Positions 30,225 to 36,121 of a DNA stretch of 56,798 nt are shown in pieces. The stretch covers positions 245,662 through 302,459 of the forward strand of contig JAQVWG010000001.1 in NCBI GenBank assembly GCA_028698585.1, given 5' to 3'. The translations under genes and the position numbers were made by a program. Below the pieces are notes generated by a model that saw nothing but the letters and a program-made list of their open reading frames with translations, made no database searches and was not told the origin of the DNA. How positions within the stretch are numbered: the stretch's first letter is position 1; every line of letters begins with the position of its first letter. Source of the DNA: Clostridia bacterium (GTDB lineage: Bacteria; Bacillota; Clostridia; Christensenellales; CAG-314).

Positions 30225-31229
30225 ATGATAAAGGTTGTAGTTGACGGATACGGTGGCGATAATGCACCACAAGAGATAGTACAAGGCTGTTTGTTGGCAC
30301 TTGATAAACATACCGATTTGGGCATAGTTATCACGGGTAAACAGCATGAATTATCACGCCTAATCCATGAGAAATACGCAGACCGCATAGAGATAGTTGA
30401 CGCTCAGCAGGTTATCACCAATAATGATGTTCCCACCACCGCCATAGCAACCAAGAAGGATAGCAGTCTTGTCAAGGCTCTTGAGAGGGTTAGGCAAGAT
30501 GACCAGTGCGTAGGGGTGTTATCTGCTGGCAGTACGGGCGCAGTACTGGCAGGTGGCATTTTCAAGGTGGGCAGAATTAAGGGTGTTTCCCGCCCCGCAC
30601 TTGCACCATTATTACCAACAATTACCGATTCTTCTGTGATATTGTGTGATTGTGGCGCCAATGTAGACTGTCAACCACAGATGCTTGTTCAGTTTGCATC
30701 CATGGCCAGCGCATACGCAAGGGCAGTACTAAATGTAGCTAACCCAAGAGTCGGTCTGTTGTCTAACGGCACAGAGGATAAGAAGGGCAACGACCTTAAT
30801 AGGCAGGCGTTTACACTGCTCAAAGAGGAGAGTAATATCAATTTTGTCGGCAATATAGAAGCAAGAGAGATACTGTCTGGCGATTATGACGTAGTAGTGT
30901 GCGATGGGTTCAATGGTAATATAGCGCTTAAATCCATAGAGGGCACAGCACTAATGGTACTTAAGACCATCAAGAAAGAGATAACTAAGGGATTCAATAA
31001 AGTGGGTGCACTGTTGCTAAAAAAAGCCTTCTCACGAGTCAGGGCTAAACTAGACTATAATAAGGTCGGTGGCGCACTATTCATTGGACTGGATAAGATA
31101 CTTATTAAAGCTCACGGTAGCAGTAAGTGTACCACTATAGAGGGCGCAATTGAGCAGATAATTACAATGCACAACAATAAACTGATAGATAGAATTAAAG
31201 AAGGTTTACCAATCAATGCCAATGACTGA
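30225..31229 (+). CDS. plsX: Acyl-ACP:phosphate acyltransferase PlsX
   Basis: 334 aa. It opens IKVVVDGYGGDNAPQEIV, the PlsX substrate motif (usually DAMGGDNAP), and has VGVLSAGSTGAVLAGG (about 97-112) and VVCDGFNGNIALKSIEG (about 224-240). It makes acyl phosphate for phosphatidic acid synthesis. The genes fabD, fabG and acpP that often follow are absent; rnc follows directly with a 14-base overlap. Confidence 0.95.
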   Translation: MIKVVVDGYGGDNAPQEIVQGCLLALDKHTDLGIVITGKQHELSRLIHEKYADRIEIVDAQQVITNNDVPTTAIATKKDSSLVKALERVRQDDQCVGVLSAGSTGAVLAGGIFKVGRIKGVSRPALAPLLPTITDSSVILCDCGANVDCQPQMLVQFASMASAYARAVLNVANPRVGLLSNGTEDKKGNDLNRQAFTLLKEESNINFVGNIEAREILSGDYDVVVCDGFNGNIALKSIEGTALMVLKTIKKEITKGFNKVGALLLKKAFSRVRAKLDYNKVGGALFIGLDKILIKAHGSSKCTTIEGAIEQIITMHNNKLIDRIKEGLPINAND

Positions 31230-31917
31230 CCAAGATTTTACTGCAATTCAATATATAATTCACTATAACTTTAATAATAAAAACCACCTAGAAAGAGCTT
31301 TTATTCACTCCTCGTACGCTAATCAAGAGGGTATTGCTAGCAATGAGCGTATGGAGTTCTTTGGTGACGCCATACTTCAACTGGTAGTATCGGAATACAT
31401 ATTTATGCACAGTAAGGATGACGAGGGCGTTCTCTCACGCATAAGAGCCAATACGGTGTCTGCAGACAGTCTATCTAATGCAGTCAATAGACTGGGACTT
31501 AATCGCTATCTAGTACTGGGCGACAGTCAAATGCACGCAGGTGCTTCTTTACACTATAAGGTATACGCTAATTTATATGAATCAATATTATGTGCAATAT
31601 ACCTAGACGGTGGACTAGACAGCGCCACTGGTTTCATCATGCGCACGCTCAAGGAACAGCTAGATATGGCAATAATGGGAGATTTTTTTGACAGCCCCAA
31701 GACTAGACTGCAAGAGTACTGCCAGAAACTACACATTAAACTAGATTATGTAGAAGTGGGCAGGAGTGGACCTGACCATAACCCAACGTTCACGTACCTA
31801 CTACTGATGAATGGTCGAGAGGTGACCAGAGGCACAGGCAACAGCAAGGCTACTGCACAAACTATGGCTGCCAACAAGGCACTACAAGTGATATATGACA
31901 AGGAGAGCAACGAGTGA
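31216..31917 (+). CDS. rnc: Ribonuclease III
   Basis: 233 aa. The nuclease signature NERMEFFGDAILQLVVSEY (about 39-57) includes the catalytic Glu/Asp, and a second acidic site is at ILCAIYLDGG. A double-stranded RNA-binding domain fills about 157-230. It processes rRNA precursors and structured mRNAs. It overlaps plsX at its start (14 bases) and smc at its end (GTGA), so it is translationally coupled to both. Confidence 0.95.
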   Translation: MPMTDQDFTAIQYIIHYNFNNKNHLERAFIHSSYANQEGIASNERMEFFGDAILQLVVSEYIFMHSKDDEGVLSRIRANTVSADSLSNAVNRLGLNRYLVLGDSQMHAGASLHYKVYANLYESILCAIYLDGGLDSATGFIMRTLKEQLDMAIMGDFFDSPKTRLQEYCQKLHIKLDYVEVGRSGPDHNPTFTYLLLMNGREVTRGTGNSKATAQTMAANKALQVIYDKESNE

Positions 31918-34844
31918 ACCTCAAGGAAATACAACTATACGGATTCAAGTCATTTAGTGACAAAATATGTCTGCAATTCAATAACCCCATTACTGGTATC
32001 GTCGGTCCTAACGGCTGTGGCAAGAGTAACGTAGTAGACGCAATTAAGTGGGTATTAGGCGAGCAATCTGCTAGAGGACTGCGTGGTAAAACTATGCAAG
32101 ACCTCATTTTTTCGGGCACAGAGCAGAAGAAGTCCATGAGTTACTGCGAGGTTACCATGATTCTAGATAATAAGAGCAGAGTTTTTCCTATAGAAATGGA
32201 TGAGATTACCATTGCAAGACGACTATATAGAGATAACGAAAGTGAGTATTTAATTAATAAGAACAGTGTCAGACTCAAGGATATGTTGGACTTACTCCGT
32301 GATGCAGGGCTGGGTAAAGAAGGTTATGCAGTGGTAGGACAGGGCAGAATGGACGCTATTCTTAATGCTAGACCGGAGGATAGGAGAGCCATATTTGAGG
32401 AGTCGCTCGGTGTATCCAAGTTTAGAGTGCGCAAGGCAGAGGCAGAGCGCAAAATGGAAAAAACACGAGATAATATAGTTAGACTCAACGACATTCTGAG
32501 TGAACTAGAGAGACAGATTGGACCACTTAAACGCCAGTCAGCAGACGCTAAGAAGTTCTTGGAGTATCAAGAACAACTTAAGTATCACGAGATAAATAAC
32601 TACATATACAGCTATGACAATGCAAGTGTCAATAAGAAGAGGATTAAGGACAAGATTACTCAACTGACGCTTAAACATAATGAAGCCTCGCAAAAGTACG
32701 ACGTGGCATTCGCCAAGCACGAGAAACTGTTCAAGGAAATCTATGACATGGATACCGTCATCAAGTCCTTACATACAACCCAACTGGATTTATCTGTAAG
32801 GATTGCCAATAGCAAGGGCGAAGTCAGGGTACTTGATGAGAAGATTAAGAATATTAGTAGCAACAGTGCTGAACTCCAAAAAGAGATTGAGCAGTCCAAC
32901 AGCCTATTGCAGAGTAATACCATTGGACTGGAGAATACTATTAAACTGCAGAATAATCTCAAGAGCGAGGAGCAGTCTCTAACAACCAGATTGAATGAGT
33001 TAGGTCAGCAATATCTAACTTGTCTTGACGAGTTGACCGTGTGGCAACAGAAGATGGACAAGATGAACAAGCAAGTGCTGGAGATATATAATTCATTGTC
33101 TAAGGAGCGGAGCAATCTATCCTCATATACCAGCCAGAAGAATGCGCTTGAGAACAGACTATCTAATATCGACAAGGATTGCGCAGAGATTGACCAACGA
33201 CTAGATGACTTGACCAATAAGCAGAGTAACGAGATACTCACCTTGATAACATCCAACTTTGAGAAACAGACGACTAAACAGATGGCAGAGCGTATTGACG
33301 GATATCTAGACAACGTTAACGTTTGCCTTAATAAGATTCGCCTTGAACCGAGAATTAAGCAACAAGTCAAGCAGCTAGTTGACATAGTCAGCGACAAGAG
33401 TAAGCAGGAGTTGGCCGTATCTAACCAAAAAGCGGAGAACTGGCAACAGAACATTATACTTATGTCTGCGCTATCAGAAAAACTAAGCAAGTTCTCGGCA
33501 TTACAGCAATCTAACTTCGACCAGAAGGATAAACTACTCAGGGAGAGAGAAAGTGTCTGTGATAAACTTAAGTCGGTCAATCAATTAGTTGCCATATCCT
33601 CTCAAGAGGAACAGAGATTGCGAGAGGTTAAACAAAACGCAGAAGAACAAGTATCTCAATCCCAAAAACTATACAACCAAGCCAAGTCCAAGAAAGATAA
33701 ACTACAAGAAGATGTCAATTCATGTAAACTCAAGGTGGCAGGACTAGGTATGAATATACAGTCCTGTGAATCTAAGATAACCGGATATAAGCAAACTAAT
33801 ACACGCGTTGCATTCGAAATAACGCAGAAGCAAAGGCAAATAGAAACTAACAATATTCTACTCAAAAATCTATATGAGCAGTTATCCTCTAATACCGGCA
33901 CGGAGGCTGAGAATCAGCAGCTTAAGGACATAGACGAGAGGATAAATCACGCCGATTCGCTCAAGAAAGATTTACAGATGCAATGCGCAGAGGCAGACCA
34001 CCAGAGGACATTCTATAATGCCGAGATGCAACAGATAAGCGATGATAAGAACAGACAAGAGTTCTCCTTAGAGAGAATTGACGATGACATCAATGACATT
34101 AAAGAACGCATAGAACAGCAGTATGGACTGACTTATTCTTCTGCCATGCGTTATAAGGATAACAATTATGATATAGAGTCATCTAAGGAACAGATAAACA
34201 AGTTTTTTGCATTAATTAATAAACTGGGCTACGTTAACGTTAATGCCGTGCAGGACTATGAGCAGACACAGGCTAGATATGACGATATCAAGGTGCAGAT
34301 TGCCGATATGCGACAGGCAGAGCAAGATTTATTGAAGTTACTTAAGGACTTAACCCATGAGATGATAACAAGGTTCAATCAAGGGTTCGAGATAATCAAT
34401 GTCAACTTCGGCAACGTATTCAAGGAATTGTTCGCAGGTGGTTATGCTCGTATGACTATTGAGAGAGATGAGAATAAGGACGAGTTAGATTATGGTATAG
34501 AGATAGAGGCGCAACCACCGGGAAAGAAACTGCGCAACATATCTCTATTATCCGGTGGCGAAAGAACGCTGACTGCAACTGCCATTCTGTTCGCTATACT
34601 TAAATTGCGCCCAATGCCATTCTGTGTGCTAGATGAGATTGAGGCTGCACTAGATGACGCTAATGCCGAGAGGATATCTACATTCCTTCGCAAGTTTGCA
34701 ACACAAACGCAGTTTATTGTCATTACTCACAAGAAGCCGACTATGGAGAGTTGTGACGTATTATATGGTGTTACAATGGAAGAGAAGGGTGTAAGCAAGG
34801 TTGTGTCGGTAGAACTAACCGACGCTATGTCTATGCCTGCGTAG
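31914..34844 (+). CDS. smc: Chromosome segregation protein Smc, short form lacking a recognisable hinge
   Basis: 976 aa against about 1,150-1,200 for ordinary bacterial Smc. The N-terminal head has Walker A GPNGCGKSN (about 31-39) and the Q-loop. The C-terminal head has the signature LLSGGERTLTATA (about 878-890), Walker B FCVLDEIEAALDDAN (about 903-917) and ITHKKPTME. Between them lie a coiled coil (about 170-440), a short central segment (about 440-510) and a second coiled coil (about 510-815). I find no hinge (no G-x-x-G-x-V start, no ALGG, no FLPL). No zinc-hook CxxC is present either. The start is GTG 31914 behind AAGGAG. The heads look fully functional. Confidence 0.9.
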   Translation: MNLKEIQLYGFKSFSDKICLQFNNPITGIVGPNGCGKSNVVDAIKWVLGEQSARGLRGKTMQDLIFSGTEQKKSMSYCEVTMILDNKSRVFPIEMDEITIARRLYRDNESEYLINKNSVRLKDMLDLLRDAGLGKEGYAVVGQGRMDAILNARPEDRRAIFEESLGVSKFRVRKAEAERKMEKTRDNIVRLNDILSELERQIGPLKRQSADAKKFLEYQEQLKYHEINNYIYSYDNASVNKKRIKDKITQLTLKHNEASQKYDVAFAKHEKLFKEIYDMDTVIKSLHTTQLDLSVRIANSKGEVRVLDEKIKNISSNSAELQKEIEQSNSLLQSNTIGLENTIKLQNNLKSEEQSLTTRLNELGQQYLTCLDELTVWQQKMDKMNKQVLEIYNSLSKERSNLSSYTSQKNALENRLSNIDKDCAEIDQRLDDLTNKQSNEILTLITSNFEKQTTKQMAERIDGYLDNVNVCLNKIRLEPRIKQQVKQLVDIVSDKSKQELAVSNQKAENWQQNIILMSALSEKLSKFSALQQSNFDQKDKLLRERESVCDKLKSVNQLVAISSQEEQRLREVKQNAEEQVSQSQKLYNQAKSKKDKLQEDVNSCKLKVAGLGMNIQSCESKITGYKQTNTRVAFEITQKQRQIETNNILLKNLYEQLSSNTGTEAENQQLKDIDERINHADSLKKDLQMQCAEADHQRTFYNAEMQQISDDKNRQEFSLERIDDDINDIKERIEQQYGLTYSSAMRYKDNNYDIESSKEQINKFFALINKLGYVNVNAVQDYEQTQARYDDIKVQIADMRQAEQDLLKLLKDLTHEMITRFNQGFEIINVNFGNVFKELFAGGYARMTIERDENKDELDYGIEIEAQPPGKKLRNISLLSGGERTLTATAILFAILKLRPMPFCVLDEIEAALDDANAERISTFLRKFATQTQFIVITHKKPTMESCDVLYGVTMEEKGVSKVVSVELTDAMSMPA

Positions 34845-35227
34845 ATTAACATAATTACCACTAGGTAACGTTGTAGGACAGTATTAGATAATCAATTGTT
34901 GGTAGTAGTAAGACAATCAACTGTAGGTAAGTATGGGATACTCAGTTGGGCGCTAATAACTTAATCATTAGCAGACCAGCAGTTAAATTATGTTCGTTGG
35001 CTAGAGGTAAGGCAATCAGCTGTAGGTCAGTATTAGATAATCTACTGTGGGTGCTATTCACATAATCATTAGCAGACCAGAAGTAAAGGTAATCGTTGGC
35101 TAGAGTTAGATTATCAATAGATAAATTATTACCGTTGATTGATAATAAGACAATCAATTGTAGGTTAGAAGTAATATACTGTGTGTGCTCATAGTTGCTA
35201 GTAGTATACGAATATATGAGGAGTTAA
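34845..35227. other. Gene-free spacer between smc and ftsY
   Basis: It holds the 99-bp tandem repeat listed separately plus further short variants of aatcaattgtaggt. A GAGGAG ribosome-binding site precedes ftsY. No convincing terminator for smc was seen. Confidence 0.5.
34910..35107. repeat. Two diverged 99-bp tandem copies
   Basis: Copies at 34910-35008 and 35009-35107 share aatcattagcagaccag, tcgttggctagag and caatca.ctgtaggt. Flanking variants suggest more, older copies. I do not see the smc tail in them. Confidence 0.75.
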
Positions 35228-36121
35228 ATGGGACTGTTTTCCAAAATTAAAGAGGGATTAAAGAAGACTAAGCAGAGTATTGGATTTGCGTTTGCACAAC
35301 TATTCAAGAAGGGTGTGTTTGGTGAGGACTTCTATGATGAACTGGAGTCAATACTACTATCTGCTGATGTTGGTTCCGCCACAACGCAGACAATCATTGA
35401 GCAACTGCGGGAAGATATGACAAGGGATAAAATCAGTAGTGCAGATAAGGCCAACCAGTACCTTAAGGAAGTGTTACTCGCTAACTTATATGATGAACAG
35501 TTAGAACTGACTACACCGTCTGTTATATTGATAGTGGGGGTTAATGGTGTTGGCAAAACGACCACTATAGGTAAACTGGCACATAACTACGTCAAGCAAG
35601 GCAAGAGCGTGCTTGTTGGTGGTGCAGATACGTTTAGGGCTGCGGCAGGCGAGCAACTCGACGTGTGGTGTAGTAGGGCAGGAGTAAGGTTGATTAAGCA
35701 CGAAGAGGGTAGTGATCCTGCATCTGTTGTATATGACGCCATAGCCTCTGCTAAATCTAAGAACACTGATATAGTAATCATAGATACGGCAGGCAGACTA
35801 CACAACAAGAAGAATCTAATGGAGGAGTTAAAAAAGATTAACCGTATCATCGAGCGTGAGTATCCACAGGCACAGCAAGTCAATTTACTCGTATTAGACG
35901 CCACCACTGGTCAAAACGCTGTTTCGCAGGTAGAGATATTCGACCAAGCAATCAGTATTGACGGCATTGTGCTGACTAAACTTGACGGTACTGCTAAAGG
36001 TGGCGTTGTGTTCGCTATAGCAGGGGAAAAAGAGTTGCCTGTGTACTTTGTCGGAGTTGGTGAAGGTATAGATGACTTAATGCCCTTTGACGCACAAGAG
36101 TTCGTCGAAGGAGTTATTTAG
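35228..36121 (+). CDS. ftsY: Signal recognition particle receptor FtsY
   Basis: 297 aa, the short form without the acidic N-terminal A domain. An N domain (about 1-90) is followed by the G domain with GVNGVGKTTTIGKLA (about 99-113), DTFRAAAGEQL (about 135-145), DTAGR (about 182-186) and TKLDGTAKGG (about 250-259). It docks SRP-ribosome complexes at the membrane. The start follows GAGGAG. Confidence 0.95.
   Translation: MGLFSKIKEGLKKTKQSIGFAFAQLFKKGVFGEDFYDELESILLSADVGSATTQTIIEQLREDMTRDKISSADKANQYLKEVLLANLYDEQLELTTPSVILIVGVNGVGKTTTIGKLAHNYVKQGKSVLVGGADTFRAAAGEQLDVWCSRAGVRLIKHEEGSDPASVVYDAIASAKSKNTDIVIIDTAGRLHNKKNLMEELKKINRIIEREYPQAQQVNLLVLDATTGQNAVSQVEIFDQAISIDGIVLTKLDGTAKGGVVFAIAGEKELPVYFVGVGEGIDDLMPFDAQEFVEGVI

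Follow-up and report, generated by a model that had tools for sequence, protein, structure and literature searches.

An Smc protein that has lost its hinge domain in a lineage of small-genome Clostridia

The hinge normally joins the two Smc molecules; it is regarded as common to all SMC complexes and is also a candidate for their DNA gate. The window (by which we mean the whole stretch of 56,798 nucleotides analysed here) carries an smc gene whose product had been described, from its letters, as an Smc without a recognisable hinge. This raises the question whether the domain has really gone and, if so, what joins two Smc molecules in its place. A Clostridia lineage with a small genome, whose only chromosome-organising Smc lacks the hinge, is a natural test of the need for that domain.

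The gene, its neighbours and the absent domain

The smc gene starts with a GTG codon and overlaps the upstream rnc by 4 nt. The gene order of the locus, plsX-rnc-smc-ftsY-ylxM-ffh-rpsP, is the standard one. The features that we refer to are the following, where G003 denotes the genome of another genus of the same family, G001 a further genome of that family and G000 the genome of the window:

31216..31917, + strand: rnc (RNase III), upstream neighbour, from its open reading frame and the standard locus order
31914..34844, + strand: smc without hinge domain, encoding 976 aa, the genome's only smc, from its open reading frame and profile searches
31914..32408, + strand: N-terminal half of the ATPase head, residues 1-165, 81% identical to G003
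32004-32027, + strand: Walker A, GPNGCGKS, residues 31-38
32334-32348, + strand: Q-loop, VGQGR
32409..33233, + strand: N-terminal arm, residues about 166-440, without gaps against hinge-bearing relatives up to residue about 430
33234..33518, + strand: conserved apex in place of the hinge, residues 441-535, 53% identical to G003, predicted helical
33285..33347, + strand: predicted short apical helix (residues 458-474) and turn RLEP (residues 475-478 in the model), from an AlphaFold2 segment model
33429..33503, + strand: best conserved apical motif, KAENWQQN-[IL]-ILMS-x-L-x-E-[KR]-[LF]-x-K-[FY], residues 506-530, in G000 and G003 and partly in the G001 fragment
33519..34358, + strand: C-terminal arm, residues about 536-815
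34359..34841, + strand: C-terminal half of the ATPase head, 83% identical to G003
34545-34565, + strand: signature, LLSGGER, residues 878-884
34620-34658, + strand: Walker B/D-loop, FCVLDEIEAALDD, residues 903-915
34722-34736, + strand: H-switch, ITHKK
35228..36121, + strand: ftsY, downstream neighbour, from its open reading frame and the standard locus order

Regarding the head, Walker A, Q-loop, signature, Walker B and ITHKK are all intact, and identical in one hinge-bearing relative. The protein passes the TIGR02168 profile of prokaryotic Smc with 787 bits (cut-off 567), and its head matches solved Smc heads with E about 1e-135. Against the RecN profile TIGR00634 it reaches 24 bits, below the cut-off of 408.

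The absence of the hinge was borne out. In a Pfam search of the protein SMC_hinge was absent from the matches at E<=1, and PF06470, searched in six frames against all 1.49 Mb of the genome, gave 0 matches. Since the protein does not match PF06470, we file it as a hinge-less variant descended from Smc and not as canonical Smc. The zinc hook reported missing is indeed missing, as there is no CxxC anywhere in the Smc of G000 or G003. A second full-length smc in the genome was also looked for and none was found; the remaining SMC_N matches are far weaker and are frames of the size of RecF, RecN and other ATPases. The genome also has a RecN-sized protein of 577 aa.

The spacer between smc and ftsY (34845-35227, 383 bp, versus 0 to about 150 bp in the hinge-bearing relatives that were read) consists of imperfect direct repeats; TAATCATTAGCAGACCAG, for instance, is present twice at a distance of 101 bp. 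This spacer occurs once in the genome and has no match in Rfam.

Extent and history of the loss

Hinge-bearing members of the family mostly have an Smc of 1191-1195 aa, and therefore that of the window is about 216 residues short, where about 200 had been estimated. Residues 165, 430, 520 and 815 of the window Smc have, with hardly any variation, their counterparts at 165, 430, 735 and 1030 in the relatives of about 1192 aa, and residues 1-430 and 520-976 align with these essentially without net gain or loss. Neither arm thus shows a net indel, and the full difference of 216 residues lies within 430-520, in agreement with the earlier placement at about 440-510. Within this segment about 306 residues, namely the hinge of about 165 with linkers and arm tips, have been reduced to about 90.

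For the coil tips we took the GY motif at the start of the hinge and the position ten residues past GGS; this choice is our own and uncertain by a few residues. With these boundaries the pairing of the arms puts the new turn at about residue 480-483. Each arm then measures, from head to turn and on these assumed boundaries, about 317 residues if the short helix is counted as arm. In a systematic study B. subtilis Smc worked at arm lengths of about 321-344 and 253-267 residues and not between them (PMC5344682), and the arm of the window Smc, as bounded here, is near the lower edge of the long functional range. In the relatives (family f1 and order relatives, loci L055-L073, about 1192 aa in total) the arm length is near-invariant across genera and even families, with unchanged residue correspondences, despite an arm sequence identity of only about 18-32%.

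Our first sample comprised 61 genomes, 37 of them from the family of the window. The hinge was found in 57 of the 61 (33 of the 37 in the family, with E about 1e-28 to 1e-34), and the four without it, G000, G001, G003 and G008, all belong to that family. The Smc of G003 is full-length (about 977 aa), hinge-less and 58% identical to that of the window over 1-974, with zero internal gaps. In G001 and G008 the smc is interrupted by contig ends, so that the hinge cannot be scored: G001 has the first 29 residues and those from about 500 onward, with the apex unassembled, and G008 no more than the last 87. A loss in G001 too is probable, because the NWQQNLILMSALKER motif recurs in the first of its assembled residues and because it clusters with G000 and G003.

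In the wider samples the hinge was present in 385 of 395 genomes of the order and 289 of 294 of the class. Among the non-matches outside the family, one weak match included, there was no intact hinge-less Smc frame, the smc being either missing from the assembly or fragmentary. Across the family, order and class samples, G000 and G003 are thus the only genomes in which an intact hinge-less Smc is seen. Four genomes of the class sample rated 99-100% complete (G445, G453, G561 and G654) have neither a hinge nor a convincing Smc match, and a natural loss of the whole Smc is possible in them. A scan of genome contigs returned only two relatives, Ca. Limihabitans stercoravium and a sheep-colon Clostridia MAG, both hinge-bearing, and a scan of viral sequences for relatives of the hinge-less Smc returned none.

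A maximum-likelihood tree built from the Smc head and arms, with the apex left out, joins G000, G003 and G001 in one clade (support 98/95) that is nested inside the hinge-bearing relatives, and hence inside the Smc proteins of the same taxon, the Clostridia; the end branches of the clade, 0.33-0.54, are of ordinary length. Because of this nesting and these branches, the tree indicates that the hinge loss is derived, that within the family it is single in the genomes seen, and that it does not signal a gene in decay. The FtsY tree also joins G000 and G003, at 98/96, places G008 with g5 and leaves the position of G001 open. The hinge was lost a single time, in an ancestor shared by at least two genera, and the clade-wide loss that the preliminary description had proposed to look for holds.

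Regarding the partners, scpA and scpB, whose existence was likewise to be checked, sit together on another contig of G000, as they do in G003. ScpA and ScpB of both genomes align without defects, and parB is present in both. Therefore the genes for the partners of a normal Smc are encoded, the complex itself being predicted. In G008, the genome whose smc is reduced to its last residues by a contig end, scpB (L104) has an insertion, acidic and of low complexity, that adds about 80 residues ahead of the conserved C-terminal end.

Two other explanations were weighed. The genomes of G000 and G003 are both fragmented draft assemblies, and an assembly or sequencing artefact could have removed the domain. 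However, the same in-frame deletion is present in two genera whose Smc proteins are aligned without gaps at 58% identity, well within assembled sequence, on contigs 302 kb and 450 kb long; the second genus refutes an assembly error, and an artefact of any kind can practically be dismissed. It is also very improbable that the Smc is decaying and no longer functional. A small genome and the loss of a normally essential domain are what decay might look like, but the frames are intact in two genera, there are no indels over 976 residues, the heads are 81-83% identical, the ATPase motifs are perfect, the branch lengths are normal, and scpAB and parB have been kept.

The tip in place of the hinge

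The apex, as defined by the two complete sequences only, is 95 residues long and 53% identical between G000 and G003, versus at most 44% in non-overlapping windows of the same size in the distal arm. Within it, the identity is 57% at residues 441-470 and 60% at 491-535, and in the adjoining arm 35-37%. In pairs of hinge-bearing relatives the hinge is 45-69% identical versus 18-32% in the coil, so the hinge is the conserved part there, as the tip is here. In such pairs the C-side coil beside the hinge is somewhat better conserved as well (25-49%), and for this reason part of the conservation on the C side of the tip may be inherited from hinge-bearing ancestors.

A single-sequence AlphaFold2 model of residues 395-570 (mean pLDDT 72, about 50-66 at the tip, pTM 0.33) has helices at 397-450, 458-474 and 479-569 and no strand, and its turn at 475-478 agrees with that given by the pairing of the arms. 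According to this model, and with low to moderate confidence, the new tip would be all-helical. No compact hinge fold was found at residues 430-520, where there is neither a profile match nor a predicted strand. When the apex model was used in a fold search, nothing was matched significantly, the best hits being Smc coil fragments with E above 0.2. The full-length AlphaFold2 model from the single sequence had a pLDDT of 40 and was not usable.

The reading that we prefer, and which has in our judgement an even chance of being right, is that of a working Smc-ScpAB in which a RecN-like three-helix tip has taken over the joining role of the hinge, with help from the arms, ScpA and ATP-dependent head engagement. 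The complex would be an ordinary Smc-ScpA-ScpB condensin whose Smc subunit lost the hinge once; its two arms are now joined by a short hairpin tip, helical by prediction, of about 90 residues for about 306. Apical helices of two protomers would pack as in RecN, which dimerises via three apical helices (PMC4255302), and the tip would thus become the new joining point of two Smc molecules. The complex would be completed by ScpA, which bridges neck and head, by contacts between the arms and by head engagement driven by ATP. ParB/parS would target it as before and it would continue to organise the chromosome, whereas the steps that need a globular hinge, that is, its opening as a DNA gate and its DNA binding, would be absent or moved elsewhere. 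We infer dimerisation through the tip, a reading supported by B. subtilis, where Smc with the Rad50 zinc hook in the hinge's place allows normal growth (PMC5344682); the exchange for an unrelated dimerisation domain leaves that Smc functional, and therefore a replacement dimerisation point suffices. Among the three mechanisms that had been put forward for the lineage, dimerisation by the central segment, as a new tip, fits best, because this segment is conserved above the surrounding arm and predicted helical, and a dimer held by the kleisin without tip contact ranks below it.

In that second arrangement there would be no apex contact at all: ScpA bridging the heads, arm-arm contacts and ATP-driven head engagement would hold the dimer, as a clamp open at the top. 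ScpA and ScpB are intact; arm contacts are said, in the part of PMC5526789 that cites Minnen 2016, to add to the dimerisation of hinge-less B. subtilis Smc, and in the presence of ATP subcomplexes of Smc5 and Smc6 that lack the hinge come together (PMC8327961). Nevertheless, it leaves unexplained why the tip is better conserved than the surrounding arm, and we consider it doubtful. Slightly more doubtful still is that this is a natural and fully working condensin without any arm-tip contact, held by ScpA, arms and heads alone; if that were true, a closed, hinge-sealed ring would be dispensable for the SMC motor. The conserved tip could also be a binding site and not a self-contact, if a separate, unrecognised protein bound and joined the arm tips as a hinge in trans. 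However, the PF06470 search found no hinge-like protein in the genome, and there is no new gene at the smc locus, where the order rnc-smc-ftsY is the same as in the relatives, which makes such a protein improbable. Finally, segment 451-505 might be a minimal, highly reduced hinge that folds like the hinge start, since its IDGY-x-x-NV stretch sits exactly at the hinge-start Y-x-GY-x-x-SV motif of the relatives. This we find hardly credible: the profile comparison (hhalign) was not significant, with P 0.097 versus 0.004-0.32 for control arm segments, fewer than 60 residues would have to make a fold of about 165, and no strands are predicted.

Comparison with known systems

The preliminary description had placed the hinge in all known Smc complexes. 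This is too strong, given that a hinge-less SMC clade without hook or paralogue, its mechanism unknown, was reported from marine Actinobacteria in 2025 (PMC12153180) and that B. subtilis Smc works with a zinc hook (PMC5344682). Beyond the marine clade, the present case gives the genomic setting, identifies the partners, fixes the exact limits of the change and shows a conserved tip in place of the hinge. A lineage that has lost the hinge and kept a well-conserved Smc head, ScpA, ScpB and ParB is a natural experiment; should its complex prove able to load and translocate, neither the opening of the hinge nor its contacts with DNA can be indispensable. Furthermore, as hinge-bearing sister genera are close, the single change can be transferred to B. 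subtilis for testing.

The canonical bacterial Smc (TIGR02168; B. subtilis Smc-ScpAB) has the same head, arms, ATPase motifs, rnc-smc-ftsY locus and ScpA/ScpB/ParB partners, but it has a hinge, whereas the window Smc is about 216 residues shorter and carries a conserved, predicted-helical tip instead. The marine actinobacterial protein (PMC12153180) shares with it that it is an SMC by phylogeny, without hinge, without CxxC and without a regular SMC beside it. However, it comes from another phylum and habitat and is known from environmental sequences, whereas for the window Smc there are a genome, partners, hinge-bearing sisters and the exact extent of the loss. Since our case lies in the Clostridia among hinge-bearing sisters, in another phylum, the two losses are very probably independent, as compared by description and not by alignment; with the marine clade counted, this suggests that the hinge was lost more than once.

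RecN is also an SMC-like ATPase without a globular hinge that dimerises by three apical helices (PMC4255302), and the tip of the window Smc, predicted helical, may be like that, but RecN has a short coil, no kleisin and a role in DNA repair. Rad50/SbcC, ASRP and related zinc-hook proteins have a long coil that ends without an SMC hinge; they are dimerised by the zinc hook, whereas the window Smc has no CxxC. B. subtilis Smc(Zh) and further variants with an engineered hinge (PMC5344682) show that the hinge fold is dispensable if the tips dimerise, although there the change is engineered and the zinc hook supplies the dimerisation, whereas the case described here is natural.
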